This document shows positions 23,629-37,114 of a stretch of 39,244 nt of DNA, one piece after another. Position 1 is the first letter of the stretch. Each line of letters begins with the position of its first letter. The stretch comes from Trueperaceae bacterium (GTDB lineage: Bacteria; Deinococcota; Deinococci; Deinococcales; Trueperaceae). The position numbers were made by a program, and so were the translations under genes. The DNA lies in NCBI GenBank assembly GCA_013697735.1, contig JACCWH010000108.1:1-39244 (forward strand), written 5' to 3'. The notes under the pieces are model-generated. The model was not told the DNA's origin. It saw only the letters and a list, made by a program, of their open reading frames with translations, and ran no database searches.

Positions 23629-24123
23629 GTGAGGTTGGCGCTCTTCTACTTCGTCCTGGTCGTGACCCAGGGATTCCTGTCGACCATCATGGCGCCGCTT
23701 CCGGCCCCCGATCTCTTCCTCATCGGCGTGTTGATCCTCCTGTACCGCGTGCCGGGCTGGCAGCTCGTGCTCTTCGGCTACGGCGCCGGGCTCCTCCAAG
23801 ACGTGATCGGACACGGTGCGCTCGGCGTGCATGCCCTCGGTCTCGCCGGCGCGGCGCTCGTCGCCACCACCGTGCGTTCACAGCTGTCGCAGTCGGGCTT
23901 CCTCGAGCGCTCGCTCGCGGTGGTCGCTGCCGTGGTGGGGAAGTGGGTGGTCGTGTCGGTGCTCCTGATCTGGCTCGCCGGTGGGACCTCGAGCCTCGGC
24001 TCGGTGGCTCCCGTAGCGGCGGTCGACGTCGCGTTCACGGTGGTGGCGGCGACCGTCTTGCTTCCCTGGGGTTACGCGCTGCTCGCTCGCACGGCGATGC
24101 TCCAACGGCGTGAGCTCCTGTGA
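23629..24123 (+). CDS. mreD: Rod shape-determining protein MreD
   Basis: A 164-residue membrane protein with five to six hydrophobic segments, matching MreD, a part of the elongasome with MreB, MreC, RodA and PBP2. The PDLFLIGVLILLYRVPG opening and the GLLQDVIGHGALGVHALG box (about residues 53-70, compare the QDxxxGxxLGxxAL pattern of MreD) are the best evidence. The family is poorly conserved, so context matters: the stop overlaps the mrdA start by 4 nt (GTGA). MreB and MreC genes are not in the window. Confidence 0.8.
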   Translation: MRLALFYFVLVVTQGFLSTIMAPLPAPDLFLIGVLILLYRVPGWQLVLFGYGAGLLQDVIGHGALGVHALGLAGAALVATTVRSQLSQSGFLERSLAVVAAVVGKWVVVSVLLIWLAGGTSSLGSVAPVAAVDVAFTVVAATVLLPWGYALLARTAMLQRRELL

Positions 24124-26069
24124 GGCGCGGTCGCGCTCGAGGTGAGGCCGGTGGGCGCCGTGCGACCGACCCGAAACGGAGTACGGAACGCCGTCGCCCC
24201 TTCGTCGGCAAGCACGCGCCGAAGGAGGTCGTTCCCGGGATGCGCAAACCCGAACACGACCCCACCGAGCAGATCCTGCCGCGCGTTCGCGTGGTGCTCG
24301 CGCTGTTGCTCTCGATCATGGTCATCTTCACCGGCCGGCTCATGTACCTGCAGATCGCGCAGGCCGAGGAGCTCAAGGAGCGCAGCGAGCAGAACGTGAT
24401 GCAGGAGCGGCGGATCACGCCGTTGCGCGGACGCATCCTGGCGCGCGACGGCACGGTGCTCGCCGACAACCGCGTCGCCTACGATCTCATGTACTGGGGC
24501 GGCGAGATCGACGGCTGGGACCGGCTGCAGGCATTCCTGCAACTCGATGCCGAGCCGAGAGCGCCCGATGCGACCCGGCCCGAGGAGCGGCTCAACGGCG
24601 CGGTGCTCGCCTGGAACATCCCCGACGAGCTGGTGCCGGCCGTCGAAGAGCGCATCGCTGGGCTGGCGAACCTCTACCTCCGCGAGCGCATCGAACGGAC
24701 CTACCCCACCAATCTCGCCGCGCAGGTGATCGGCTACACCTCCCAGGCCGACCCGGCGCGGAACCCGGGCTACGGCGTGGAGGACCTCGCCGGGGTGATG
24801 GGGATCGAGGCGACGTGGGAGGCGGATCTCTTCGGCGCCGCCGGCACGCAACTCGTGCACGTCGACCACCGCGGCGCCCCGCTGCGCTCGCAGGTGATCG
24901 AGAGCGCGACCCCCGGCAACGACGTGATGCTCACGATCGATCCATCGCTGCAACGACTCGCCGAGGACGTGCTCCATACCGCGCTCGATTACGTCAACAC
25001 CGACCGACGTCGCGTGGGGCTCCCCACCGAGAGCGTGGTGCACGGCGCCATCGTCGCCTACGACCCGCGAACCGGCGAGGTGCTGGCGATGGCGTCGTCG
25101 CCGACGTTCGACCAGAACGTATTCTCGAAGCGCCCGATCGATCCCGATGCGGTGGGGGCGTACCTCACCGACGGCACGCACAAGCCGCTGCAGAACCGCG
25201 CCGTCGAAGCCTACGCCCCGGCGTCGACCTTCAAGCTCGTCACCTCCCTCGCGCTGCTCGACGGCGGCTGGATCTCACCGTCGTCGCGCTTTCCGTGCAC
25301 CGCCACGTATCGGCTCGGCGGCATCACGTTCCACAACTGGGCGACCTACGACAAGGGGATGTACGACGTCCGAAACGCCATCGCCGACTCGTGCAACACC
25401 TTCTTCTGGCACGCAGTCACCTCGACACCCAACGCGACGCGCGGCTGGGGTCCCTTCATGGAGCAGGAGGTGGCGCTCGCGCGCGCGCTCGGGTTCGGGG
25501 CGCCGGTCGGCGTCGGCCTGCAGGAGGAGCGCTCGGGACGCATCCCCGACGAGGCGTGGGTGCGTGCCCAACCGCAATACGAACACGGTTGGCTCCCCGG
25601 CTTCACCATGAACTCCGTGATCGGGCAGGGAGACGTGCTCGCGACGCCCACCCAGATCGTGCAGCTCATCGGGACGCTCGCGCTCGACGGCCACCAGGTG
25701 CAGCCGCACCTCGTCCGCCAGATCGGCGAGCACCCGACCTACGTCGATACCGTCTCGGTCTCGGGGCAGAATTGGCGCACGCTCAAGGAGGGCATGCGAA
25801 TGATGTTCACCGATTACCCGTCACGCTCGGTGCTGGGGCCCGGCGTCTTCCCGGTCGACGTGGCAGGGAAGACCGGTACCGCGCAGACGCCGCGCGGCCC
25901 CGACTACACGCATGCCTGGTTCATGGGCTACGGTCCGGTCGCCGATCCCGAGATCGCACTGGCCGTCTTCATCGAGTACGGAGGGTCGAGCTCGCGCGTG
26001 TCGGTGCCGATCGCCCGCGACTTCTTCGCCGGCTACTTCGCCCCGCCGAGCGTCGAGGCGACGCGATGA
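24120..26069 (+). CDS. mrdA: Penicillin-binding protein 2 (elongation transpeptidase)
   Basis: A 649-residue class B penicillin-binding protein that cross-links peptidoglycan during lateral wall growth. After about 55 basic cytoplasmic residues comes one membrane helix (VVLALLLSIMVIFTGRLMYL, about 59-78). The pedestal domain with RGRILARDGTVLADN follows, then the transpeptidase domain. The active-site motifs are complete: PASTFKLV (SxxK, about 367-374), SCN in ADSCNTFF (about 422-429) and KTGTAQ (about 584-589). EDLAGVMGIEATWE is typical of PBP2. The GTG start overlaps the mreD stop and the stop overlaps minC by 4 nt. The basic N-terminal tail is longer than in most PBP2 proteins; starts further in, such as MRKPEHD at 24240, are possible. 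Confidence 0.93.
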   Translation: MRRGRARGEAGGRRATDPKRSTERRRPFVGKHAPKEVVPGMRKPEHDPTEQILPRVRVVLALLLSIMVIFTGRLMYLQIAQAEELKERSEQNVMQERRITPLRGRILARDGTVLADNRVAYDLMYWGGEIDGWDRLQAFLQLDAEPRAPDATRPEERLNGAVLAWNIPDELVPAVEERIAGLANLYLRERIERTYPTNLAAQVIGYTSQADPARNPGYGVEDLAGVMGIEATWEADLFGAAGTQLVHVDHRGAPLRSQVIESATPGNDVMLTIDPSLQRLAEDVLHTALDYVNTDRRRVGLPTESVVHGAIVAYDPRTGEVLAMASSPTFDQNVFSKRPIDPDAVGAYLTDGTHKPLQNRAVEAYAPASTFKLVTSLALLDGGWISPSSRFPCTATYRLGGITFHNWATYDKGMYDVRNAIADSCNTFFWHAVTSTPNATRGWGPFMEQEVALARALGFGAPVGVGLQEERSGRIPDEAWVRAQPQYEHGWLPGFTMNSVIGQGDVLATPTQIVQLIGTLALDGHQVQPHLVRQIGEHPTYVDTVSVSGQNWRTLKEGMRMMFTDYPSRSVLGPGVFPVDVAGKTGTAQTPRGPDYTHAWFMGYGPVADPEIALAVFIEYGGSSSRVSVPIARDFFAGYFAPPSVEATR

Positions 26070-26638
26070 AGGCGCGCGGCACGCGCGGCGGCATCCTGCT
26101 CTCCCTCACGGCCGACGACACCGTCGAGACGATCGCGGCGACGCTCGAGCCCCAGCGCGAACTCCTCGCCGGCAGGGTGATCGTAGAGATCGCCGAGAAG
26201 GTCGCCTTTCCGGTGCTCGCGGCGATCGACGCGGCCGTCCGCGACGCCGGCGGTGAGCTCACCGACGTGCGGCCACCGTCGTCGGTCATGGCGCTGCGCG
26301 GCGAGACCGTCATCGTGGCCCGCACCATCCGCGGCGGTGGCCGCATCGACTCGACGGGCTCGATCGTGGTCCTCGGCGACGTCAATGCCGGCGCCGAGCT
26401 CGTCGCGAACGACGACGTGATCGTGACGGGGGTGCTGCGCGGTCTGCCGCACGCGGGGGCGGCCGGGAACGAGAAGGCCGTCATCTACGCCGAGCGGATC
26501 TTGTCGCCCCAGCTGAGGATCGCGGGGGAGCTGGCGCAATCTGGCGGTCGGGGCGTAGACGGCGCTCCCGACCGGAAGGGGCCCGAGGTCGCGCTCCTGC
26601 GCGAGGGTCAGATCGTGGTGCGACCCTGGGGGTCGTGA
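26066..26638 (+). CDS. minC: Septum site-determining protein MinC
   Basis: A 190-residue inhibitor of FtsZ assembly. The C-terminal beta-helix domain that binds MinD and FtsZ is clear: VIVARTIRGGGRIDSTGSIVVLGDVNAGAELVAND, quoted only in part here, then VTGVLRGLPHAGAAGNEKA and IYAERILSPQLRIAG (about residues 84-155). The N-terminal domain (about 1-75) is short, and a glycine-rich tail ends IVVRPWGS. The ATG overlaps the mrdA stop (ATGA). MinD and MinE do not follow, which is unusual; the next gene lies on the other strand and overlaps this one by 31 bp. Confidence 0.9.
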   Translation: MKARGTRGGILLSLTADDTVETIAATLEPQRELLAGRVIVEIAEKVAFPVLAAIDAAVRDAGGELTDVRPPSSVMALRGETVIVARTIRGGGRIDSTGSIVVLGDVNAGAELVANDDVIVTGVLRGLPHAGAAGNEKAVIYAERILSPQLRIAGELAQSGGRGVDGAPDRKGPEVALLREGQIVVRPWGS

Positions 26639-27714
26639 CCAGCGCGATCCTCGACCTCGACACCGATCCCGCTCTCGCTCGCGAGGGCGCGCGCCCTCGC
26701 GAGCGACCAGGCTCCGGCGACCGGCTCGCCCACCGCGCGTCGCACCACCGTACGGAGGCTCGCGGTCAGTGCCGCGCCGATCGGCTCCTCCAGCGCCGTC
26801 GCGACCCCACCCGCCAGCGCGATCGCGTTCGGTGGCCGACCGCCCGTGCGTTCGAGCGCCGTTGCCACCGTGGCCACCAGCTCCGCGAGGTAGGCGACGG
26901 CGCCGTCGCGGAGAGAACGGGCGGTGGGGTCGGCTGCGGCGTGCTCGAGCACGAGCGGCGCCAGCGCCGCGAACTCGGCCGGCGTCGCCGTGCGCGCGCG
27001 CCCCACGAGGGCGTCGACGCCCGCTCCCCACGTTCCCTGCACGGCGCGCGCGAGGGCTCCATCGGGGTCGCGACCGTCGCAGGCGCGCAGCGCAGCGCGC
27101 ACCGCCTCGATCCCGAGCCAGGCGCCGCTCCCCTCGTCGCCCACGCGCGAGCCCCAGCCGCCGACACGCACGCGCACCGCGCCAGTGACGCCGACCGCGA
27201 CGCTGCCGGTGCCCGCGACGAGCAGCACGCGGACAGTGGGCGGCGCCTCGTCGTACGCGGAGGGGGCGTCGGTGGCCGGCAGCGCTCCCTCGAGCGCGAT
27301 CCAGGGATCGCCGACGAGCTCCAGGCGGTCTGCCGCGAGTCCGCCAGCCACGAGCGCCGTGGTCATGGCTCGCCGCTCGGCGTCGCGATCGACGCCGGCG
27401 AGACCGATCGTGACGAAGGCCCGGGAAAGCCCATCGGCAGGACCCGCGCCTTGCCTCCAGGCGTCATCGAGCAAGGCCAGCAGCGACGCCGCCGCGGCCT
27501 CGACCCCGACCGCGTAGGGGTTGCAGGAGCGCTCGACCGTCGCGGTGCCGGCCGGCCGTGACGCTCCGGCGTGCGAGGTCGGCGCCGCCCAGGCGCGGCC
27601 GCGTGTGCCGCCGCCGTCGACGCCCACCGCCCAGACCCCGCTTGCGTCCGGCGGCTCCGCCGGGCTGCGCTGCGCCGCATCGGGCGAGGGGTCGGGCGGC
27701 AGGGCGGGAGTCAC
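26608..27714 (-). CDS. BadF/MurK-like amino-sugar kinase (GlcNAc/MurNAc kinase candidate)
   Basis: A 368-residue member of the BadF/BadG/BcrA/BcrD ATPase family in the ASKHA fold. The group includes MurK, which phosphorylates MurNAc and GlcNAc, and eukaryotic GlcNAc kinase. Phosphate-binding VGVDGGGTRGRAW is at about residues 29-41, then TIGLAGVD, VLLVAGTGSVAVGV (phosphate 2) and the GGWGSRVGDEGSGAWLGIEAV segment diagnostic of sugar kinases of this family, with ALAGGVA (adenosine) near the end. GTG at 27714 is chosen because it lies 7 nt after the nagZ stop; the longer frame would run deep into nagZ. Co-transcription with nagZ makes amino-sugar phosphorylation much more likely than benzoyl-CoA reductase activation. 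Confidence 0.85.
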   Translation of the reverse strand: MTPALPPDPSPDAAQRSPAEPPDASGVWAVGVDGGGTRGRAWAAPTSHAGASRPAGTATVERSCNPYAVGVEAAAASLLALLDDAWRQGAGPADGLSRAFVTIGLAGVDRDAERRAMTTALVAGGLAADRLELVGDPWIALEGALPATDAPSAYDEAPPTVRVLLVAGTGSVAVGVTGAVRVRVGGWGSRVGDEGSGAWLGIEAVRAALRACDGRDPDGALARAVQGTWGAGVDALVGRARTATPAEFAALAPLVLEHAAADPTARSLRDGAVAYLAELVATVATALERTGGRPPNAIALAGGVATALEEPIGAALTASLRTVVRRAVGEPVAGAWSLARARALASESGIGVEVEDRAGHDPQGRTTI

Positions 27715-27721
27715 TCGGAAG

Positions 27722-29215
27722 TCACTCGGGCAGCGCCTCGAGCGCGACGGGTGGGCGACCGACCGTGGGAGCGCCCAAGAGCGCCGCCACCGCGGCTCGT
27801 GCGGAGGCGGCACGAAAGCCGAACGTCACGAGTGCGGGGCGCGGGAGCAGTGCCACGTTGGCCGGGTTCCAGAGCGTGATGTGCACGCTCGGGACGCCCG
27901 CATCCCGTGCACGGGCGACGGCTCGACGCGCCCCCTCGACGTCGCGCTCGGTCAGCGGTTTCGGCGCGGCGGTGCTCACCAGGAGCGCCTGCGCGCCCGC
28001 GAGCGCCGCGTCGAGGTCGGGATCGCGATCGAGGTGGCGCACGGGGATGCCGGCCTCGTCGAGCGCCGCCTCGAGTGCCGCCGTCGGTCGGACACCGGTC
28101 TCGCTCGCCGTGCCGGCGGTGACGACGGCGCTCACGAGCACCACCGGCTTCCCCGGAACGAGTCGCGGCAGGGTACCGAGCGTGACGAGGGCGCGCCGCG
28201 CCGCTTCGTCGACGAGGCCGAGGTCGGCGCTCGTGCTCTCGAGCGGACCGTGAGCGCCGTTGGGATAGTCGTGCAGCAAACGTGCCACACGCGCCTCCGC
28301 GGTCGCGACGCGCTCGGCCCCGAGCCTGCCGTCTGAGCGCGCCCGTTCGACTTCGTGCACCACGCGCAGATGCTCTTCGAGGGTGCCGCACGAGAGCGGG
28401 ACGTCGGCGCCGGCGGCGAGCGCGAGCACCGCCGCCTGCGGCGCCGACCAGCGGTCCGCGATCGCTCGCATGTTCAGGGCGTCGGTGAACACGACGCCGT
28501 CGAAGCCCAGCGCGTCTCGCAGCGCGCCCTCGAGCGTGGCGCGCGAGAGCGTCGACGGCCACTCGGGATCGAGCGCCGGAACGAGCAGGTGAGCGGTCAT
28601 CACGGCGGCGGCCCCCGCCTCGATGCCGGCGCGGAAGGGCGCCCACTCCAGCCGCTCGAGGCGCTCGCGCGAGGCGTCGAGGCGCGGCAGGTCGAGGTGA
28701 GAATCGACGGCGACGTCGCCGTGCCCGGGGAAGTGCTTGAGCGTGGCAGCGACGCCCGCCCCCTGCAGGCCGCGCACGAAGGCCGCCACGTGCCGCGCGA
28801 CGCGCTCGGGATCGGCGCCGAACGAGCGGTCGCCGATCACGGGGTTGGCCGCGTCGATCTGCACGTCGGCGACGGGCGCGAAATCGACCGTGCAACCGAT
28901 CGCGCGTAGCCCGCGAGCCGTGACCGCGCCGAGCGCCTCGGAGAGCAGCTCGTCGTCGGCGGCGCCGAGCGCCATCGCGCTCGGGGGCGACGGCAGGGCA
29001 GCGAGCCGGACCACGCCGCCGCCCTCCTGGTCGATGCTCACGAGCACCTCGCGACCGGCCGCGTCGCGCAGATCGGCGATGAGATCGCGGCCGCGTTCCG
29101 GGTCGACGAGATTGCGCGAGAAGAGGCAGACGCCGGCGATGGGCTCGCTCGCGAGCGCAGCGCGCTCGTCGTTCGTGAGCGCGGGGCCTTCGAGGTCGAT
29201 CACGACGACTGGCAT
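27722..29215 (-). CDS. nagZ: Family 3 beta-N-acetylglucosaminidase NagZ
   Basis: A 497-residue glycoside hydrolase family 3 enzyme that removes terminal beta-linked GlcNAc from muropeptides (GlcNAc-MurNAc or anhydroMurNAc). The catalytic Asp/His motifs of NagZ are seen: VSIDQEGGGVVRL, FAPVADV, NPVIGDRSFG, the flexible loop KHFPGHGDVAVDSH (about residues 157-170, with the acid/base His) and the nucleophile Asp in VVFTDALNMRAI (about 243-254). No signal peptide is present, so it should act in the cytoplasm after uptake. A C-terminal domain of about 150 residues follows the barrel, as in longer Gram-positive-type enzymes. AGGAGG at 29220-29225 lies 4 nt before the ATG. It is the fourth gene of the salvage operon. 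Confidence 0.93.
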   Translation of the reverse strand: MPVVVIDLEGPALTNDERAALASEPIAGVCLFSRNLVDPERGRDLIADLRDAAGREVLVSIDQEGGGVVRLAALPSPPSAMALGAADDELLSEALGAVTARGLRAIGCTVDFAPVADVQIDAANPVIGDRSFGADPERVARHVAAFVRGLQGAGVAATLKHFPGHGDVAVDSHLDLPRLDASRERLERLEWAPFRAGIEAGAAAVMTAHLLVPALDPEWPSTLSRATLEGALRDALGFDGVVFTDALNMRAIADRWSAPQAAVLALAAGADVPLSCGTLEEHLRVVHEVERARSDGRLGAERVATAEARVARLLHDYPNGAHGPLESTSADLGLVDEAARRALVTLGTLPRLVPGKPVVLVSAVVTAGTASETGVRPTAALEAALDEAGIPVRHLDRDPDLDAALAGAQALLVSTAAPKPLTERDVEGARRAVARARDAGVPSVHITLWNPANVALLPRPALVTFGFRAASARAAVAALLGAPTVGRPPVALEALPE

Positions 29216-29230
29216 GGGGCCTCCTGCGAG

Positions 29231-30346
29231 TCAGCGGCTCTTCACGTCGAGGGCGTCGCGAAGTGCGTCGCCCACGAAGTTGAAGGCGAGCACGGAGAGC
29301 ACGATGAGGGCGCCGGGCGCCAGCAGCCACGGGTAGAGCGAGAGCGCTTCGAACGATTGCGCGTCGGCGAGCAGGAGCCCCCACGAGGTCATCGGCTCCT
29401 TGATGCCGAGCCCCAGGAACGATAGCGCGCTCTCGCCCAGGATGTACGCCGGCAGCGCCAACGTGGCGGCGATCACCAGGTAGGAGGTGATGTTCGGCAA
29501 CACGTGGCGGAGCACCACGCGCATGTCGCGCGCGCCCAGCGCCTGCGCCGCCTGGACGTACTCCACCTCGCGCGTCGCCAGCACCTGCCCGCGCACCACG
29601 CGCGCGAGCCCGGCCCAGCCGATGAGCGCGAGCACCGCCACGATCCCGAGGTAGACCCATGTGGACGGCCAGTTGGCCGGGATGATCGTCGCGAGCGCGA
29701 GCAGGAGCGGGAGCCGTGGGAACGAGAGGAGCACCTCCAGCATGCGCTGGATGGCGCCGTCGACCCAGCCGCCGTAGTAGCCCGATATCCCGCCCACCAC
29801 GATGCCGATCGAGAAGCTGATGAGGATGCCGATGAGCCCCACCGTGAGCGAGACCTGCGACCCGACGAGCGTCCGCGACAGGAGGTCGCGACCGAACCGG
29901 TCGGTGCCGAGCAGGAAAGCACGCCCTTCGGCGACGCCGAAGAGGTGCACGTCGGTGGGGAAGAGGCCGAAGAGGCGGTAGCGGTCGCCGCGAACGATGA
30001 GGCGGATCGGTTCGGGCGCATCGGTGCGCGGTTCGTAAAGGCGGCGGAAGGTGACGGGGTCACGCGTCGCCTCGAGGGGGTAGATGAAGGGGCGGACGAG
30101 CCGCCCTTCGTGGAAAACGTGGATCCCCTGCGGCGGCCGGTGCACGTCGCCGCGGTGCTGGACGGTGATGCCGTAGGGCGCAAGGAAGGGCGCGAAGAGT
30201 GCGATCAGGTAGAGCGCGATCAGGATCGCGCCGCCCGCCAGCCCCACGCGGTTGGCAGCGAAGCGGCGCCAGGCCTTGCGCGGAGCGGGCGTGGGGGCGC
30301 CGTCGGGGGCGAACTCCTGCGCGCGGAGGGTCGATGCGTCAGCCAT
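29231..30346 (-). CDS. ABC transporter permease, DppC/OppC family
   Basis: A 371-residue inner-membrane permease of a peptide-type ABC importer. An N-terminal helix (GLAGGAILIALYLIALFAPFLAPYG) is followed by an unusually long periplasmic loop of about 90 residues (about 55-140), then the binding-protein-dependent transport domain from LGTDRFGRDLLSRTLVGSQVSL. The ATPase-contact EAA loop reads EYVQAAQALGARDMRVVLRH. The ATG overlaps the permease upstream by 8 bp (the dppB-like gene ends TAT GGC TGA). It is followed after 15 nt by nagZ. Homology does not tell peptides from oligosaccharides; the context suggests muropeptides or amino sugars. Confidence 0.9.
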   Translation of the reverse strand: MADASTLRAQEFAPDGAPTPAPRKAWRRFAANRVGLAGGAILIALYLIALFAPFLAPYGITVQHRGDVHRPPQGIHVFHEGRLVRPFIYPLEATRDPVTFRRLYEPRTDAPEPIRLIVRGDRYRLFGLFPTDVHLFGVAEGRAFLLGTDRFGRDLLSRTLVGSQVSLTVGLIGILISFSIGIVVGGISGYYGGWVDGAIQRMLEVLLSFPRLPLLLALATIIPANWPSTWVYLGIVAVLALIGWAGLARVVRGQVLATREVEYVQAAQALGARDMRVVLRHVLPNITSYLVIAATLALPAYILGESALSFLGLGIKEPMTSWGLLLADAQSFEALSLYPWLLAPGALIVLSVLAFNFVGDALRDALDVKSR

Positions 30347-31310
30347 AGCGGATCCGCGGGTCGACCCAGGCCAGCGCGAGGTCGGCGAGCAGGTTGCCGA
30401 TCATGAGCAGGAGGCTGGCGAAGAGGAGCAGCGTCATGGCGACGTACTGATCCTTCGCGAGCAGCGACGAATAGAGCAGCGGGCCGATGGTCGGGAGGTT
30501 GAGGACGATCGAAGCGATGATCGTGCCGTTGATCAGCTCGGGGAGTTGCAGGCCGGCCATGGAGACGAGCGGATTGATGGCGGTTCGCACCGCGTGTCGC
30601 ATGGTCACGCGGTGCTCCGAGACACCCTTCGCGCGCGCGGTACGCACATAGTCGGCGTCGAGCACGTCGAGGAGGTTGGCGCGCATCTGGCGCATGATCG
30701 TCGCCACGCCCCCCGTGCCGATCGCCAGGATGGGGATCCAGAGGTGGTCGAGCATGTCGACGAACTTTGCCCAGGTCCAGCTCTCGCCGATGAAGCGGGG
30801 ACTGAAGAGCCCGCCGACGTTGGTGCCGCCGTACGCGAGCACCATCGCGACGAGCAGCAGCGCCACGAGGAAGTCGGGAACGGCGAGCCCGACGTACCCC
30901 ACGAACGACGCGACCGCGTCGGTGAAGCCGTTGCGCTTCAACGCCGTGTAGATACCGAGCGGCACCGCCACGATCCAGGCGAACAGGAGCGTGACGAGTG
31001 CGATCACCACGGTCCAGGCGAGGCGCTCCCCGATCATGCTGGCGACCGGGCGGTTGGCGAAGAACGAGAAGCCGAAGTCGCCGCGCGTGACGATGCCCCA
31101 GATCCAGCGACCGTACTGCTCGACTGGAGAGCGATCGAGGCCGAGCTGGGCGTTGATGCGCGCCACCGCTTCGCGCGAGAAGCGTGGGTCCTCGAGGTAG
31201 CGGTCGGTGAACGACCCCGGCTGCAGTTGAATGACGGCGAAGCAGATCGCCGATACCAGGAGCAGCGTCGGGATGAACGTGAGCAGGCGACGCGTCAGGA
31301 AGACGAGCAC
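30339..31310 (-). CDS. ABC transporter permease, DppB/OppB family
   Basis: A 323-residue partner permease with six membrane segments. It starts LVFLTRRLLTFIPTLLLVS, has the usual periplasmic LQPGSF region, GDFGFSFFANRPV, and the EAA loop DYVRTARAKGVSEHRVTMRHAVRTA (part quoted), ending ALAWVDPRIRYG, all standard for DppB. GTG at 31310 is preferred to the frame's upstream codons: GAAGGG lies just before it and the family usually begins with FLxRRL. No ATPase subunit genes (DppD/DppF type) lie in the window, so they must be supplied from elsewhere. Confidence 0.9.
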   Translation of the reverse strand: MLVFLTRRLLTFIPTLLLVSAICFAVIQLQPGSFTDRYLEDPRFSREAVARINAQLGLDRSPVEQYGRWIWGIVTRGDFGFSFFANRPVASMIGERLAWTVVIALVTLLFAWIVAVPLGIYTALKRNGFTDAVASFVGYVGLAVPDFLVALLLVAMVLAYGGTNVGGLFSPRFIGESWTWAKFVDMLDHLWIPILAIGTGGVATIMRQMRANLLDVLDADYVRTARAKGVSEHRVTMRHAVRTAINPLVSMAGLQLPELINGTIIASIVLNLPTIGPLLYSSLLAKDQYVAMTLLLFASLLLMIGNLLADLALAWVDPRIRYG

Positions 31311-31379
31311 GGTAGCCCTTCGCTCGAACTCACTCGGATGGTGGGTGAATGAGTCGTTGGCAAGATAGGTGCGGTGGGG

Positions 31380-31413
31380 GCGGAGGCGACGCCGCATCGG
31401 GCGCCGCCTCCGC
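31380..31413 (-). other. Intercistronic hairpin between binding-protein and permease genes
   Basis: GCGGAGGCG pairs with CGCCTCCGC, then after one A-C mismatch CGCC pairs with GGCG around a 6-nt loop: a stem of 13 pairs starting 5 nt after the solute-binding-protein stop. No T-tract follows, so it is not a normal terminator. Such hairpins commonly protect the upstream mRNA and give more binding protein than permease. Confidence 0.6.
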
Positions 31414-31418
31414 GTGGG

Positions 31419-33209
31419 TCAGCGTCGGAAGTAGAGCGGGACGGGGTTGTACCCCGGGATCACGCCCAGGCTGTAGACGAAGTTGCCGATGTGGTCGTAG
31501 ACCGCGGCCACGTTGGCGGGCTTGGCGATCATGATCACGGGGACGTTCTCGGCGTTGAGGCGCTGCCACTCGCGATAGAGCTCCGCGCGGTCGTCGGCGT
31601 CGGTCTCGACGGAGCCGCGATCGAAGATCTCGTAGATGCGGCGCTCCCAGTCCGCCATGGCGTCGAAGTTCGGCGCCTCCCCGGTGTCGGCGGGCTGCGT
31701 CGAGCGGTGCCAGTAGTACAGCGAGCCGCCGGGCTGCCAGATCGGCTTGCGCAGCTCGGGGTCGGGCTGGTTCCCGAGTGCGACGACGATGGCCTCGTAA
31801 TCACCCGAGAGTCCGGTGCCCAGGAGCTGGCTCGCCTGGATGCCCTGCAAGTTCACCCGGACACCGATCTCCGCGAAATCGTTCTGGAGGATGGTGGCGA
31901 TGTCGGTGAAGGCGGGCGAGTCGTTGCCGTAGGTGAGCGTGAACTCGAGCGCCCTACCCGCGGAGATGTTGCGCACGCCGTCGCCGTCGGTGTCGGTGAG
32001 GCCGAGCTCGTCGAGCGCGGTCGCGGCGGCCGCGAGGTCGTACTCGCCCATGAGGCCGGTGGTGTCTTCGTAGAAGGCGGCGTTCGCTGGTGCGGTCGGC
32101 GTCCCCGGGATCTCGGCGAGACCGTTGTAGACGTCGTCGATGACCCGCATGCGATCGACTGCGAGCTCCATCGCGCGGCGGAACTCGACGTTCGAGAAGA
32201 GCTCGGCGAGCTCCGCATCGGCGGCGTCGAAGTTGAAGGCGAGGTGGGGGGGCGAGCCGAAGAGGGCGGGCGACTGCACGACGTCGAAGTCGGCGCCGGC
32301 GAGCGAGCGCGTCATGAAGTCGGGGAACTGCGCTCCGCTGATGTTGAGCTGGTCGAGGTTGCCGGCGAGGAACTGCGCGACCTGCGCGTCGGTGCCGGGG
32401 ACGATCAGGTAGTCGAGGCGCTCCAGGTAGGGGAGGGGCGTGCCCGCTTCGTCGACCTTCCAGTAATCCGGGTTGCGCTCGAGGCGCACGAGCTGCCCGG
32501 GCGTGTAGGAGGTCAGGCGGAAGGGACCGGTGCCGACCACGAGTGACGGATCGACGTCGGTGGGCCAGGCGTTGTTGATGTCGGCCGGCGCGGCGCCGCC
32601 CTCGACGGAGAACGGCAGCAGCACGTGCTTGGGCATGATGAAGAAGCGCTGCTGCAGCAAGAAGGCCGGTGCGGCGGCCGGGAGCGTCATCCGGACCGTC
32701 ATGTCGTCGACGGCCTCGAAGGTCACGGGGCGCGACTCGCCGTCGACCGTGAACGTGAACTGCGCGGCGTCACCGGCGCGCGCCTCGGGGTTGGTGATGA
32801 TCTGCTCGTAGGTGAAGATCACGTCGTCGGCGGTGAAGTCGGTGCCGTCGTGCCAGGTCACGCCTTCGCGCAGGTGGAAGGTGTAGACCGTGCCATCGTC
32901 GGAGATCTCCCACGACTCGGCGAGGCCCGGAACGAGCTCGTAGTTCTCGAGATCGAACTCGACGAGGGAATCGAACATCTGCTGTGACAGCGTCTGGCTC
33001 ACGGTGCTGATCTCGCCGTAGTAGAAGAAGCGCGGTGGCGAGTCGCCCAGCACCATGGTCATGGCGCCGCCGCTCTGGCCGCTCTCGATGTCGAGTCCAG
33101 GGTAGGAGACGGTCTTCGGTTGCGCGAACGCCGCGCTGCCGAACACCAGGGCTCCCACCACCAGTACGGCGATCGTGCGAGCCAGTCCCTGACGTAGGGT
33201 CGTCTGCAT
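31419..33209 (-). CDS. Family 5 extracellular solute-binding protein of an ABC importer
   Basis: A 596-residue secreted receptor of the SBP_bac_5 (OppA/DppA/MppA) family, which delivers ligand to the permeases encoded next. A Sec signal peptide is clear (TIAVLVVGALVFGSAAFAQP, cleavage after AFA, about residue 29). There is no lipobox cysteine, so it is periplasmic rather than a lipoprotein. Family landmarks are LAESWEISDDGTVYTFHLREGVTWHDG (part quoted), FTADDVIFTYE, VVGTGPFRL, NPDYW and, near residue 412, DTDGDGVRN. GGGAGGT at 33215-33221 lies 5 nt before the ATG. Family 5 receptors bind peptides, murein tripeptide or chitin oligosaccharides; the neighbours favour a cell-wall fragment or amino sugar. 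Confidence 0.92.
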   Translation of the reverse strand: MQTTLRQGLARTIAVLVVGALVFGSAAFAQPKTVSYPGLDIESGQSGGAMTMVLGDSPPRFFYYGEISTVSQTLSQQMFDSLVEFDLENYELVPGLAESWEISDDGTVYTFHLREGVTWHDGTDFTADDVIFTYEQIITNPEARAGDAAQFTFTVDGESRPVTFEAVDDMTVRMTLPAAAPAFLLQQRFFIMPKHVLLPFSVEGGAAPADINNAWPTDVDPSLVVGTGPFRLTSYTPGQLVRLERNPDYWKVDEAGTPLPYLERLDYLIVPGTDAQVAQFLAGNLDQLNISGAQFPDFMTRSLAGADFDVVQSPALFGSPPHLAFNFDAADAELAELFSNVEFRRAMELAVDRMRVIDDVYNGLAEIPGTPTAPANAAFYEDTTGLMGEYDLAAAATALDELGLTDTDGDGVRNISAGRALEFTLTYGNDSPAFTDIATILQNDFAEIGVRVNLQGIQASQLLGTGLSGDYEAIVVALGNQPDPELRKPIWQPGGSLYYWHRSTQPADTGEAPNFDAMADWERRIYEIFDRGSVETDADDRAELYREWQRLNAENVPVIMIAKPANVAAVYDHIGNFVYSLGVIPGYNPVPLYFRR

Positions 33210-33344
33210 GAAGTACCTCCCATTCGTACGTTGATCTGCCCGCGTAGTCTACACCATTGGTCTAGGAGTGGTATATCCTGGTCACCAGTCGCAGGCCGGC
33301 CATCCCCTCCCGGGCGCCGCGCCGCCGGGAACGCGAGGGAAACC
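33210..33344. promoter_or_regulatory. Divergent control region of the importer operon and gntR
   Basis: This 135-base gap separates the two transcripts. It holds the importer -10 TAGACT (33246-33251, minus). The dyad ACCATTGGT (33253-33261) overlaps the half-site TGGTCTA (33258-33264). A TATATC hexamer at 33272-33277 could be the gntR -10, and the perfect dyad CTGGTCACCAG spans 33278-33288. The TGGTCTA half-site and ACCA/TGGT arms resemble operators of NagR/DasR-type HutC-family repressors. The region therefore probably carries autoregulatory operator sites for the adjacent regulator. Confidence 0.55.
33246..33251 (-). promoter_or_regulatory. -10 element of the salvage importer operon
   Basis: TAGACT on the minus strand, 36 nt before the ATG at 33209. 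Unlike the leaderless set, this transcript would have a leader of about 30 nt with a strong Shine-Dalgarno. An ACCATTGGT dyad touches its upstream edge. Confidence 0.5.
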
Positions 33345-34184
33345 ATGGCGTCCTCCGATGCCACGAAGCGCGTCACGATCGACCAGAAGGTCGTCGAGGT
33401 CGCCGTGCGCCTCGCGAACGCGAGCGCCGCCGCGCACGTCGATCTCGCCGTCGACAAGGAGTTGCCGACGCCCGCCTACCTGCAGCTTCGCGACAAGCTC
33501 CGCGGCGCCATCGACTCCGGAGCCTGGCCGGTGGGGCATGCGCTCCCCTCGGAACGTGACCTCGCTCTCTCCCTCGCCCTCTCGCGCATGACGGTCCGGC
33601 GCGCGTTCGAGGTGCTCGTCGACGACGGTTTCGTGGAGCAACGTCAGGGCTCGGGTACCTACGTCCGCTCGCGCCGACTGGAGCAGACGATCGACCGGGT
33701 CATCGGCTTCACGGACGAGGCGCGCCTGCTCGGTTTCAGGCCCGGAAGCCGCACCCTCGAGGTCGCCGGGGTGGAGGCGGAGGGCGTGGTCGCCGCCGCG
33801 CTCCGCTGCGACGCTGGCAGTGTCGTGCTCCGTGTGGTGCGCATCCGAACGGCCGACGACCTACCGCTGGCGCTCCAAGTCGCCTACCTCCGGCCGCAGA
33901 TGACCACGCTCACGGCCGAGGCGCTCGCACGCTTCGGCAGCCTCTACCGGGCCGTGGCCGCGATGTACGGGGTCACCGCGGCGCGTGCGCGCCAGACGAT
34001 CGGCGCCCGGCTGCCGACGCCCGAGGAACGCTCGCTCCTCGACGTGCCCGCCGGACTCCCCGTGCTCGCGCTCGAGCGCACCACCTTCGACGAGCGCGAC
34101 GTCCCCTTCGAGTACGTTCGCTCCGCCTACCGCGGCGACCGCTACTCACTGGCGCTCGATCTCCGCTCACCCGACGGGGGATGA
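33345..34184 (+). CDS. GntR-family transcription regulator, HutC subfamily
   Basis: A 279-residue regulator. About 45 N-terminal residues precede a GntR winged helix (PAYLQLRDKLRGAIDSGAW, LPSERDLALSLALSRMTVRRAFEVLVDDGFVEQRQGSGTYV in part, about residues 46-110). A UTRA ligand-binding domain follows (about 125-275). HutC-subfamily members such as NagR and DasR respond to phosphorylated amino sugars, but the ligand here is only inferred from the neighbouring nagZ and kinase genes. The ATG at 33345 has GAGGGA at 33335-33340. Starts further upstream would lie inside the control region. The stop overlaps the acetyltransferase start (ATGA). Confidence 0.9.
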   Translation: MASSDATKRVTIDQKVVEVAVRLANASAAAHVDLAVDKELPTPAYLQLRDKLRGAIDSGAWPVGHALPSERDLALSLALSRMTVRRAFEVLVDDGFVEQRQGSGTYVRSRRLEQTIDRVIGFTDEARLLGFRPGSRTLEVAGVEAEGVVAAALRCDAGSVVLRVVRIRTADDLPLALQVAYLRPQMTTLTAEALARFGSLYRAVAAMYGVTAARARQTIGARLPTPEERSLLDVPAGLPVLALERTTFDERDVPFEYVRSAYRGDRYSLALDLRSPDGG

Positions 34185-35155
34185 GCACGCACTCCGCGGC
34201 GCCCTCCGCCCCGGCGGGCGCCCTCCGTACCCTCGGCCCCGACGACGCATCGGCTGTCGCCGACCTCTGGAACGCCACCTTCGGCGACACGCACCCGCTG
34301 CGCGCCAAGGCCTTCGCGACCTGGTGGGGCTCCGAGCACACCGACGCCGACCTCACCTTCGGCCTCTCCCGTGGTGGGCGGCTCGTGGGCGCACTGCTCG
34401 CACGGGCGCCGCGTCGAGCGTGGTCGACGCCCGGCGTCGGACACGTATCGCTCCTCGCCGTCGCCCCCGAGGCACAGGGCGCGGGCGTGGGCGCCGAACT
34501 CTGGCGCGCCGGCGTGACGGCGTTGCGCGAGCGCGGCGTGCGCGTCGTACGGCTCGGCGCCGATCCCGGCCATCTCCTTCCGGGCGTGCCGGTGCTCGCC
34601 CCCGCTGCGGCGTGGCGGTTCTTCCGTGCGCGCGGTCTGACCTTCGGCCCGGTCGAGTGCGACCTCCACCTCGACCTGCGTCCCGGCCCGCCGACGACCC
34701 CGTGCGACGCGCGCCTCTTCGACGATGATCCGGAAGCGGTGGTCGCATTCGTCGCGCACGCCTTCCCCGGCCGCTGGGCCGAGGAGGTTGCCGCCTTCGC
34801 GGCGCACGGCTGCACGCTCCTAGGGCTCGAGCGCGCCGGGGCGGTGGTCGCCTTCGCCGCGGCGTTCGGCCCCGACGACGCCATCTCTGGCCCGAGCCTG
34901 ACGTGGTCGGCCGCCCTGGCGGGGCGCCCGGCGGGACTCGGTCCGCTCGGCGTGGAGGTCACGCAGCGAGGGCTCGGGCTCGGTCTCGGCATCGTGGCGG
35001 CGGGTGCGCGCTGGCATCACGCCCGCGGCGCCGAGGACCTCCTCATCGACTGGACCACGCTGGCGCCCTTCTACGGTCGGCTCGGCGCGCGCGTCTGGCG
35101 GGCCTATCAACGCTCCGAGGGTGTGGTCGACGCGGCGGAGCTGGCGAATCCCTGA
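34181..35155 (+). CDS. Tandem-GNAT acetyltransferase, possibly GlmA-like
   Basis: A 324-residue protein with two GNAT folds. The first (about residues 15-165) has the acetyl-CoA loop VAPEAQGAGVGAELW and LGADPGHLLPGVPVLAP; the second (about 180-315) has GVEVTQRGLGLGLGIVAAG and DWTTLAPFYGRLGARVW. Tandem GNATs include mycothiol synthase and the glucosamine/glucosaminide N-acetyltransferase GlmA of Clostridium, which works beside MurK and NagZ in cell-wall recycling. Translational coupling to the regulator of a nagZ-kinase operon makes a GlmA-like role attractive: re-acetylating de-N-acetylated wall sugars before NagZ or the kinase acts. This is inference; the fold alone does not fix the substrate. 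Confidence 0.75.
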   Translation: MSTHSAAPSAPAGALRTLGPDDASAVADLWNATFGDTHPLRAKAFATWWGSEHTDADLTFGLSRGGRLVGALLARAPRRAWSTPGVGHVSLLAVAPEAQGAGVGAELWRAGVTALRERGVRVVRLGADPGHLLPGVPVLAPAAAWRFFRARGLTFGPVECDLHLDLRPGPPTTPCDARLFDDDPEAVVAFVAHAFPGRWAEEVAAFAAHGCTLLGLERAGAVVAFAAAFGPDDAISGPSLTWSAALAGRPAGLGPLGVEVTQRGLGLGLGIVAAGARWHHARGAEDLLIDWTTLAPFYGRLGARVWRAYQRSEGVVDAAELANP

Positions 35156-35170: not shown

Positions 35171-37114
35171 GTGATCCCTCTCGGCACCCGCAGCGCACCG
35201 ACGTACCGCGCCGACATCGAGGGGCTCCGGGGCATCGCAATCCTGCTCGTCGTCGCCTATCACGCGTCCGTTCCGGGCTTCACGGGCGGCTACGTGGGCG
35301 TCGACGTATTCTTCGTCCTCTCCGGCTACCTGATCACGGGACTCCTCGCCAGGGAGATCGAGGCGTCCGGTACCGTCCGGTTGCTGGAGTTCTATGGCCG
35401 CCGCGCACGGCGGCTGCTACCGGCCTCCGCGCTCGTGCTCGCGCTCACGATGCTCGTCGGGTACCTCGTCCTCGCTCCGGTCGAGCAACGGTCGATGACC
35501 GCAGCTGCCGTGGCGTCGGCTGCGTACCTCAGCAACGCCTACTTCGCCGTCATGGCGACGGACTACCTCGGTGCTGGATCGAGCACCAACCCGTTCCTGC
35601 ACATGTGGTCGCTGGCGGTCGAGGAGCAGTTCTATCTCGTGTGGCCGCTCATGCTCCTGCTCGCCGTCTCGACAGCACGACTCTGCCGGCGGCCTGCTCG
35701 CTACGGTCTCCTGTGGCTCGTGGTCGTCGTCATCGTCGCCTCGCTCGGAGTCTCCATCTGGCTCACGGAGTACCGCCAGCCATGGGCGTTCTTCCTGCCG
35801 CCGACTCGCGCTTGGGAATTCGCGGTCGGCGGGCTCGTGGCGCTCCTCCCAGCGACGCGCGGACGCCCCGCTCGCTTCGCGGGCTGGTGTGGCCTCGCGG
35901 CCGTCATCGCTGCCGCAGCCCTGTTCGACGATGCGACGGCGTTCCCGGGTTGGATCGCGCTGCTGCCGGTCGTCGGAACCGCGCTCATCGTGCGTGCCGG
36001 CGGTGGGAGCCTCGCGGCGCTCCTGGAATGGCGTCCGCTGCGTGCGTTGGGCCGCCTGTCGTACTCCTGGTACTTGTGGCACTGGCCGGCGATCGTGCTG
36101 GCGACGGCCGCCTTCGGCGAACTCTCGCTCGCTGCACGCATCGCGGTCATGGCGGGGGCCCTCGGCCTCGCCGAGGCGACGTATCGGCTCGTCGAGAACC
36201 CCGTGCGCCGTCACCCCGTCCTCGCCCGACGCCCGGCCCCCTCGCTCTGGTTGGCACTCGCGATCACCCTCAGCAGCGTGACGGCGGGCGTGATCTGGCG
36301 AGCGGCGGTCACGACGGCGTCGGAGTCTCCTGAACAGGTCCGTTTCGAGGAGGCTCGCGCCGACATCCCGATCCTGTACCCGACGGCCTGTCACCTCGAG
36401 ATCTACGAGGTCGAGGTGCGGGCCTGCACGTTCGGACCCGCGGAACCCACAATGACGATCGTCCTCTTCGGCGACAGCCACGCCGCGCAGTGGTTTCCGG
36501 CCCTGCACGCGCTCGCGTGGGATCGGGGCCTGCGGGTGATATCGCTCACGAAGTCGGTCTGCCCCGCCTACGACGTGGATTGGGAGCCTCCCGCCCTCCG
36601 CCGGACCTACGCCGAGTGTGCACGCTGGCGCGATGCCGTCTGGAGGTACCTGGGCGTCGTTCGCCCGGACGTCACCATCCTCGCCGCCTTCGGCGGCTAC
36701 GGTCTCGATCGCGACGAGTGGCTGGCGGGGGTCGACGACGCGTTCTCGGCGGCGAGTCGGGTGAGCGGGCACGTCGTCGCGATCCGCGCCACGCCGATCC
36801 ACGATATCGACCCGGGGACCTGCCTGGCCCGCCAAGCATGGCGGGCATGGGGCGGCACCGCTGCCGAATGCTCGTTCGACGTGGCGAGCGTGGACGACGC
36901 CATCTTCGAAGACGAAGTCGCGCTCGCAGCGACCTACCCGCGCGTCAGTATGCTCGACCTCAACGAGGAGATCTGTTCGGCAGGCACCTGCGACCTCGAG
37001 CGCGACGGCCTCGTCGTCTACCGTGACGAAGATCACCTCACGGCGTCGTTCGCACGGACCTTCGCCGAGCGTTTCGGTCGCCATCTCGACGAGCACGTCG
37101 GCCCGCCCGATTGA
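35171..37114 (+). CDS. OafA/YrhL-type polysaccharide O-acyltransferase with SGNH domain
   Basis: A 647-residue protein with an N-terminal acyltransferase-3 membrane domain (about ten helices, residues 1-385) and a C-terminal extracytoplasmic SGNH hydrolase-like domain. The membrane part shows YRADIEGLRGIAILLVVAYH (Arg and His motifs), GGYVGVDVFFVLSGYLIT, FYGRRARRLLPA, HMWSLAVEEQFYLVWPL and LSYSWYLWHWP. The SGNH part has the nucleophile in FGDSHAAQW (about 433-441) and a late DEDHLT (about 620-625, catalytic Asp/His). Such proteins transfer acetyl groups to surface polysaccharide, LPS or peptidoglycan. GTG is fixed by TAGACT 7 nt upstream. The acceptor polymer is unknown. It converges on tyrA with a 10-nt gap. 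Confidence 0.92.
   Translation: MIPLGTRSAPTYRADIEGLRGIAILLVVAYHASVPGFTGGYVGVDVFFVLSGYLITGLLAREIEASGTVRLLEFYGRRARRLLPASALVLALTMLVGYLVLAPVEQRSMTAAAVASAAYLSNAYFAVMATDYLGAGSSTNPFLHMWSLAVEEQFYLVWPLMLLLAVSTARLCRRPARYGLLWLVVVVIVASLGVSIWLTEYRQPWAFFLPPTRAWEFAVGGLVALLPATRGRPARFAGWCGLAAVIAAAALFDDATAFPGWIALLPVVGTALIVRAGGGSLAALLEWRPLRALGRLSYSWYLWHWPAIVLATAAFGELSLAARIAVMAGALGLAEATYRLVENPVRRHPVLARRPAPSLWLALAITLSSVTAGVIWRAAVTTASESPEQVRFEEARADIPILYPTACHLEIYEVEVRACTFGPAEPTMTIVLFGDSHAAQWFPALHALAWDRGLRVISLTKSVCPAYDVDWEPPALRRTYAECARWRDAVWRYLGVVRPDVTILAAFGGYGLDRDEWLAGVDDAFSAASRVSGHVVAIRATPIHDIDPGTCLARQAWRAWGGTAAECSFDVASVDDAIFEDEVALAATYPRVSMLDLNEEICSAGTCDLERDGLVVYRDEDHLTASFARTFAERFGRHLDEHVGPPD

Follow-up and report, generated by a model that had tools for sequence, protein, structure and literature searches.

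We analysed a 39,244-base window, the entire contig JACCWH010000108.1 (C80) of a Trueperaceae bacterium assembly (GCA_013697735.1; 3.52 Mb in 237 contigs, completeness 96.5%), and in it a locus at 26.6-35.2 kb that an original prediction had read as a salvage system for peptidoglycan and amino sugars. Every gene named there was present with an intact frame (Table 1). On the minus strand, an importer receptor is followed by two permeases, NagZ and a BadF-type kinase, with gaps or overlaps of no more than about 21 bp. Divergently from the receptor, the plus strand carries a GntR-UTRA regulator and a tandem GNAT, which overlap by 4 bp (ATGA).

The kinase open reading frame (ORF) from 27813 would overlap NagZ by 92 bp, so the GTG at 27714 is the likelier start. 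In the case of the regulator, the ORF from the TTG at 33231 has a long N-terminal extension, which makes the ATG at 33345 likelier; with the start placed there, the divergent promoter measures 135 bp. For comparison, the GNAT was used to query a scan that covered Trueperaceae as family relatives and Thermaceae, including Calidithermus, as outer relatives, and 20 kb around the GNAT genes was compared in 20 genomes.

Table 1. Genes and putative control site of the locus (window coordinates)
Feature	Position	Strand	Evidence
BadF/BcrA-type amino-sugar kinase (MurK/NagK-like)	26608..27714	-	PF01869 3e-19
NagZ, GH3 beta-N-acetylglucosaminidase, extra C-terminal region	27722..29215	-	PF00933 3.5e-77
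OppC/DppC-type permease	29231..30346	-	PF00528 + OppC_N
OppB/DppB-type permease	30339..31397	-	PF00528 + BPD_transp_1_N
Family-5 solute-binding protein, the importer receptor	31419..33209	-	PF00496 (SBP_bac_5) 7.6e-83
Putative operator TGGTCTAGGAGTGGTATA, 11-bp direct repeat, in the divergent promoter	33258..33275	+	conserved repeat
GntR/HutC-family regulator	33345..34184	+	UTRA 1.3e-35, GntR 1.1e-16
Tandem GNAT, GlmA-like glucosamine/glucosaminide N-acetyltransferase (predicted)	34181..35155	+	5kf1 8e-27

The tandem GNAT aligns over its full length with GlmA of Clostridium acetobutylicum (5kf1; residues 22-313 against 8-312), and its second-closest structure is 4zm6, the GNAT half of the fungal GH3-GNAT fusion RmNag (1.5e-16). 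It keeps the C-terminal IDWT Asp and FYGR Tyr, the residues changed in 5kga and 5kgh, respectively, and the Tyr is invariant in the GNAT family alignment A1. The protein is predicted to be a GlmA-like acetyltransferase of glucosamine (GlcN) or glucosaminides. NagZ passed the NCBIfam PRK05337 cut-off (225.8 against 207), and the motifs KHFPGHGxxxxDSH and TDALNM, the latter with the catalytic Asp, are kept in an alignment with Bacillus subtilis NagZ structures. Judged by these motifs, the enzyme would be catalytically intact, and the lack of a visible signal peptide suggests that it is cytoplasmic.

By sequence, the best PDB match of the kinase was the N-acetylglucosamine (GlcNAc) kinase 1zc6 (2e-16), while C. 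acetobutylicum MurK (8zo3) matched at 3e-8. Foldseek searches with its AlphaFold2 model (predicted local distance difference test, pLDDT, 84) placed 1zc6, 2e2n and 8zo3 at the top; for this predicted structure, 1zc6 gave the best E-value, and 8zo3 came first by TM-score to the query (0.71). The kinase has the BadF ATPase fold with the DGGGT, catalytic Asp, GTG and GDEGSG motifs. Residues governing the acceptance of N-acetylmuramic acid (MurNAc) have been described for T. forsythia MurK (PMC10465942). The residue preceding the catalytic Asp is Gly in the window kinase, Thr in T. forsythia MurK and Asn in C. acetobutylicum MurK, and the window kinase has GGW in place of SPL, as do both C. acetobutylicum MurK and the GlcNAc kinase 1zc6. 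With 89 bits against a cut-off of 370 for the NCBIfam equivalog NagK_SO3507, the protein is no ortholog of that NagK. In four Thermaceae loci (L045, L046, L048 and L051), the kinase has lost the GDEGSG Asp (EQGGG/EVGGG), so sugar handling may differ there.

The profile search identified the importer genes of the locus, a receptor plus two permeases, as Dpp/Opp-type. The receptor has a signal peptide recognised by eye; its nearest solved structures are 6epy, an alpha-galactoside-binding protein, and 5ipw, and the chitin-oligosaccharide-binding protein 1zty is also among its relatives. Its AlphaFold2 model was of low confidence (pLDDT 61.5) and was not used. ATPases recognised by oligo_HPY matches are encoded 12 times elsewhere in the genome. 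At the five sites inspected (C154, C35, C40, C50 and C195), the ATPases stood beside other permeases, and no pair lacking permeases of its own turned up as the obvious partner of the importer.

MurQ and AnmK are missing from the locus, as had been stated, and both are encoded at G000:C157 of the same genome, where a second importer diverges from an AmiE-like gene, AnmK and MurQ. This AmiE-like gene belongs to PF00144, and its nearest NCBIfam model, although below the cut-off, is PBP4B, which belongs to the Escherichia coli murQ operon (PMC5061867). C154 carries DppBCDF beside NagA-NagB (PermB-PermC-two ATPases-NagA-NagB), and a second NagA-NagB pair lies on C126. NamZ was not found in the host genome. 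Three PF01522 deacetylases are encoded in it, so GlcN residues are possible. Since the ATP-binding cassette (ABC) ATPases, MurQ, AnmK, NagA and NagB are all located elsewhere, the locus is not self-contained, and this part of the original prediction has to be given up.

In Trueperaceae GNAT loci with enough contig to judge the layout, the arrangement recurs. Receptor-PermB-PermC, usually with NagZ and sometimes with the kinase, diverges from GntR-GNAT in loci of the genera g1, g4, g5, g8 and g9, and the permeases are 68-88% identical across these loci. Linkage in relatives had been set as a test of the prediction, and the outcome of no linkage did not occur. In 11 Trueperaceae loci, MurQ is the next gene after the GNAT; in g1, which includes the host genome, and in g4 it instead adjoins AnmK elsewhere. 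MurQ passes the NCBIfam PRK05441 and PRK12570 cut-offs. Matches to TIGR00274 at 18-35 bits proved to be SIS-domain noise, and only those of about 200-350 bits were taken as MurQ.

Calidithermus holds the whole set in a single region: AnmK-GntR, importer-AmiE-like-MurQ, a second importer with an extra receptor and NamZ, and GNAT-kinase. Outside the phylum, a Chloroflexota locus (L199) carries GntR-PermB-PermC-DppD-DppF-receptor-NagZ-GNAT-AmiE-like-kinase in a row, a Treponema metagenome-assembled genome (L186) has importer-NagZ, GNAT and MurQ, and Spirochaetota have NagA-NagZ-GNAT-MurQ-AnmK-kinase. In Clostridium rectalis (L165 4363-10978), a run of ORFs ends in AmiE-like, NamZ, NagZ and GNAT. 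A relative without the GNAT (L231, G099:C10:3000-21000) has AnmK-AmiE-like, an importer, NamZ, a sugar receptor and GntR-MurQ within 18 kb. The original prediction knew of no such set with a Dpp-type importer in the phylum, and we found no description from Deinococcota in the literature searched. The linkage is not unique to the host genome or to its phylum: it is Trueperaceae-wide and also occurs in Chloroflexota and the Treponema genome.

The regulator carries a GntR DNA-binding and a UTRA effector domain. In 15 Trueperaceae divergent promoters, the one in the window included, we observed 21 sites of a direct repeat, TGG(T/A)-N7-TGG(T/A), in the form TGGTCT-N5-TGGTNTA; the number expected in these promoters from Markov-shuffled sequence is 0.10. 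A genome scan at no more than one mismatch placed the 18-bp site at exactly two positions in the 3.5 Mb assembly, one in the window and the other at C157:19365-19382, where it separates the second importer from AmiE-like-AnmK-MurQ. Matches at 3 mismatches in the host genome were at control level and were ignored. GNAT-bearing relatives yielded 23 sites at no more than 2 mismatches, counted by hand by setting the site scan against gene positions. All but one of them (22/23) stand at the same two promoters, lying either between the receptor and GntR genes or ~1.1-1.2 kb upstream of AnmK; the 23rd (G093) precedes a sugar-type receptor-permease-permease-NamZ operon. Family members without the GNAT are mostly without such sites, the exceptions, which have a few, being the g11 genomes, G107, G078 and G079. 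In G079, a copy with 2 mismatches (L215 4696-4713, minus strand) precedes an ORF matching no pathway gene, which may reflect use of the site by a related regulator. Comparable TGGT repeats are found in Calidithermus before the GNAT, both receptors and GntR-AnmK.

The NagR/DasR regulators of the GntR-HutC type likewise combine GntR and UTRA domains in the control of amino-sugar genes, and half of the Trueperaceae site equals the NagR half-site, GTGGTCT. The NagR site is the palindrome GTGGTCTAGACCAC (PMC4333415), whereas in Trueperaceae the half-site is repeated directly with an 11-bp period, which sets it apart from an inverted-repeat dre operator. A perfect dre palindrome and GTNTANAC were rejected as operators, as they were inconsistent across relatives, where the conserved element is the direct repeat. 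We infer that the adjacent regulator binds the putative site. The same site at both promoters suggests that the locus belongs to a regulon spread over at least two loci.

These results make it highly probable that a regulon for peptidoglycan-sugar salvage has in this locus its arm for import and first cleavage, a reading in which the Dpp-type importer would carry peptidoglycan disaccharides or muropeptides. Starting from the observed gene content, conservation, linkage and shared site, we propose the following substrates, step order, ATPase partner, site-binding regulator and effector. The receptor and permeases would import GlcNAc-MurNAc(-peptide) fragments, powered by ATPases encoded elsewhere. 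The GlmA-like GNAT would then re-acetylate GlcN at the non-reducing end and so enable NagZ, which would release GlcNAc. Free GlcNAc, and possibly MurNAc, would be phosphorylated at O-6 by the BadF kinase. The second locus, with its AmiE-like amidase, AnmK, MurQ and own importer, would remove the peptide, phosphorylate anhydroMurNAc and turn MurNAc-6-phosphate into GlcNAc-6-phosphate, and this product could enter central metabolism or wall synthesis via NagA (deacetylation) and NagB (deamination). The GNAT-coupled regulator probably represses both loci through TGGTCT-N5-TGGTATA, with an amino-sugar phosphate releasing it.

The genes could also serve chitin or chitosan salvage, with the importer taking up (GlcN/GlcNAc)2, the GNAT and NagZ yielding GlcNAc, the kinase making GlcNAc-6-phosphate, and MurNAc uninvolved. 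This would fit the best sequence match of the kinase and the chitin-oligosaccharide- and alpha-galactoside-binding relatives of the receptor. It would also fit RmNag of Rhizomucor miehei, which acts on chitobiose and pairs a NagZ-type hydrolase with a GlcN acetyltransferase, the latter half enabling (GlcN)2 cleavage by the former (PMC4680927); unlike the genes in the window, however, RmNag is fused, fungal and set in a chitin context. We regard chitin salvage as improbable, given that in relatives the set is consistently accompanied by MurQ, AnmK and NamZ, which are MurNAc-specific families, along with AmiE-like genes, and that the common control site ties the locus to AnmK-MurQ. It is quite improbable that the importer is a normal transporter of oligopeptides, which either came to stand next to amino-sugar genes by accident or takes up just the peptide portion of the fragments: most studied family-5 receptors and Dpp/Opp permeases do carry peptides, AmiE-type amidases free peptide stems and the locus is without ATPases, but the importer stays beside GntR-GNAT(-NagZ) across Trueperaceae at the permease identity given above, is found with these genes in Thermaceae as well and diverges from the regulator across the conserved site, and there is precedent for Dpp/Opp-type importers whose receptor is specific for peptidoglycan (YejBEF-YepA, PMC9790009). 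Thus, the MurQ, AnmK, NamZ and AmiE-like neighbours in relatives favour peptidoglycan salvage over chitin or peptides, and the core of the original prediction is supported beyond what the sequence alone could show.

Several observations weigh against peptidoglycan salvage as proposed here. GntR/HutC regulators commonly bind inverted rather than direct repeats. The locus has no ATPase pair of its own, and MurQ, at 250, does not reach the 302 that the strict equivalog model TIGR00274 demands. The IDWT Asp is replaced by Asn in 4 of the 14 aligned GNAT relatives. No close relative of the kinase was found in the g5 and g9 relatives that keep the remaining genes, so the kinase is not essential to the set. 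Additionally, the system may serve the recycling of the cell's own wall or the scavenging of other bacteria. We consider evenly balanced the fuller proposal that the importer is a dedicated muropeptide/disaccharide importer, an undescribed substitute for AmpG found from Trueperaceae to Thermaceae, which would borrow its ATPases and form a single regulon with the AmiE-like/AnmK/MurQ and NamZ loci, under a HutC-type regulator reading NagR-like half-sites set in 11-bp direct repeat and not as a palindrome.

The NagZ-MurK-GlmA recycling enzymes of C. acetobutylicum, reportedly the subject of work by Reith and Mayer and by Reith et al., both in 2011 (cited in PMC4680927 and PMC4432640), resemble the window set in the cytoplasmic-type NagZ, the BadF-type MurNAc/GlcNAc kinase and the tandem-GNAT glucosaminide acetyltransferase. 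In the Clostridium loci L148 and L165, NagZ adjoins the GNAT, and L165 also has AmiE-like and NamZ genes. The window locus combines these kinds of enzyme with the Dpp-type receptor and permeases (without ATPases) and the GntR-UTRA regulator in a divergent layout, and the Trueperaceae genome keeps MurQ and AnmK in a second locus under the same control site. The B. subtilis cluster murQ-murR-murP-amiE-nagZ-ybbC(namZ) (PMC5061867) likewise forms a functional unit of MurQ, an AmiE-type amidase, NagZ and NamZ. It differs in having secreted NagZ and AmiE, a phosphotransferase-system importer and MurR, whereas the window locus has a signal-less NagZ, an ABC importer, a GntR regulator, a GNAT and a kinase. 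YejBEF-YepA of Agrobacterium is also a peptide-type ABC importer, in which YepA is a dedicated peptidoglycan receptor replacing AmpG; its receptor and gene neighbourhood differ from those in the window, for which a peptidoglycan ligand is predicted.

On the far side of the GNAT, 15 bp after it, lies a gene for an AT3 + SGNH acyltransferase (35171-37114, plus strand), at a place where many relatives have MurQ; no such gene was found in the relatives' loci. This domain pair is known from wall/polysaccharide O-acetyltransferases. At the other end, PBP2 and MinC genes (24120-26638, plus strand) adjoin the kinase convergently. In three relatives (L034, L036 and L039), PBP2 is near the kinase with a NagA-like gene in between, which is absent in the window.

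Peptidoglycan recycling has been described mainly for Proteobacteria and Firmicutes, and the literature searched, which left most subscription papers outside, yielded no paper on it in Deinococcota. The locus is made of known kinds of enzyme; its novelty lies in their being joined to a Dpp-type importer, in the two-locus regulon and in the direct-repeat site. The locus offers Deinococcota a concrete, testable recycling system, with a candidate muropeptide importer, a compact one-site regulon and a predicted re-acetylation step by GlmA in a bacterium other than Clostridium. Calidithermus, a cultured relative, is suited to testing it.

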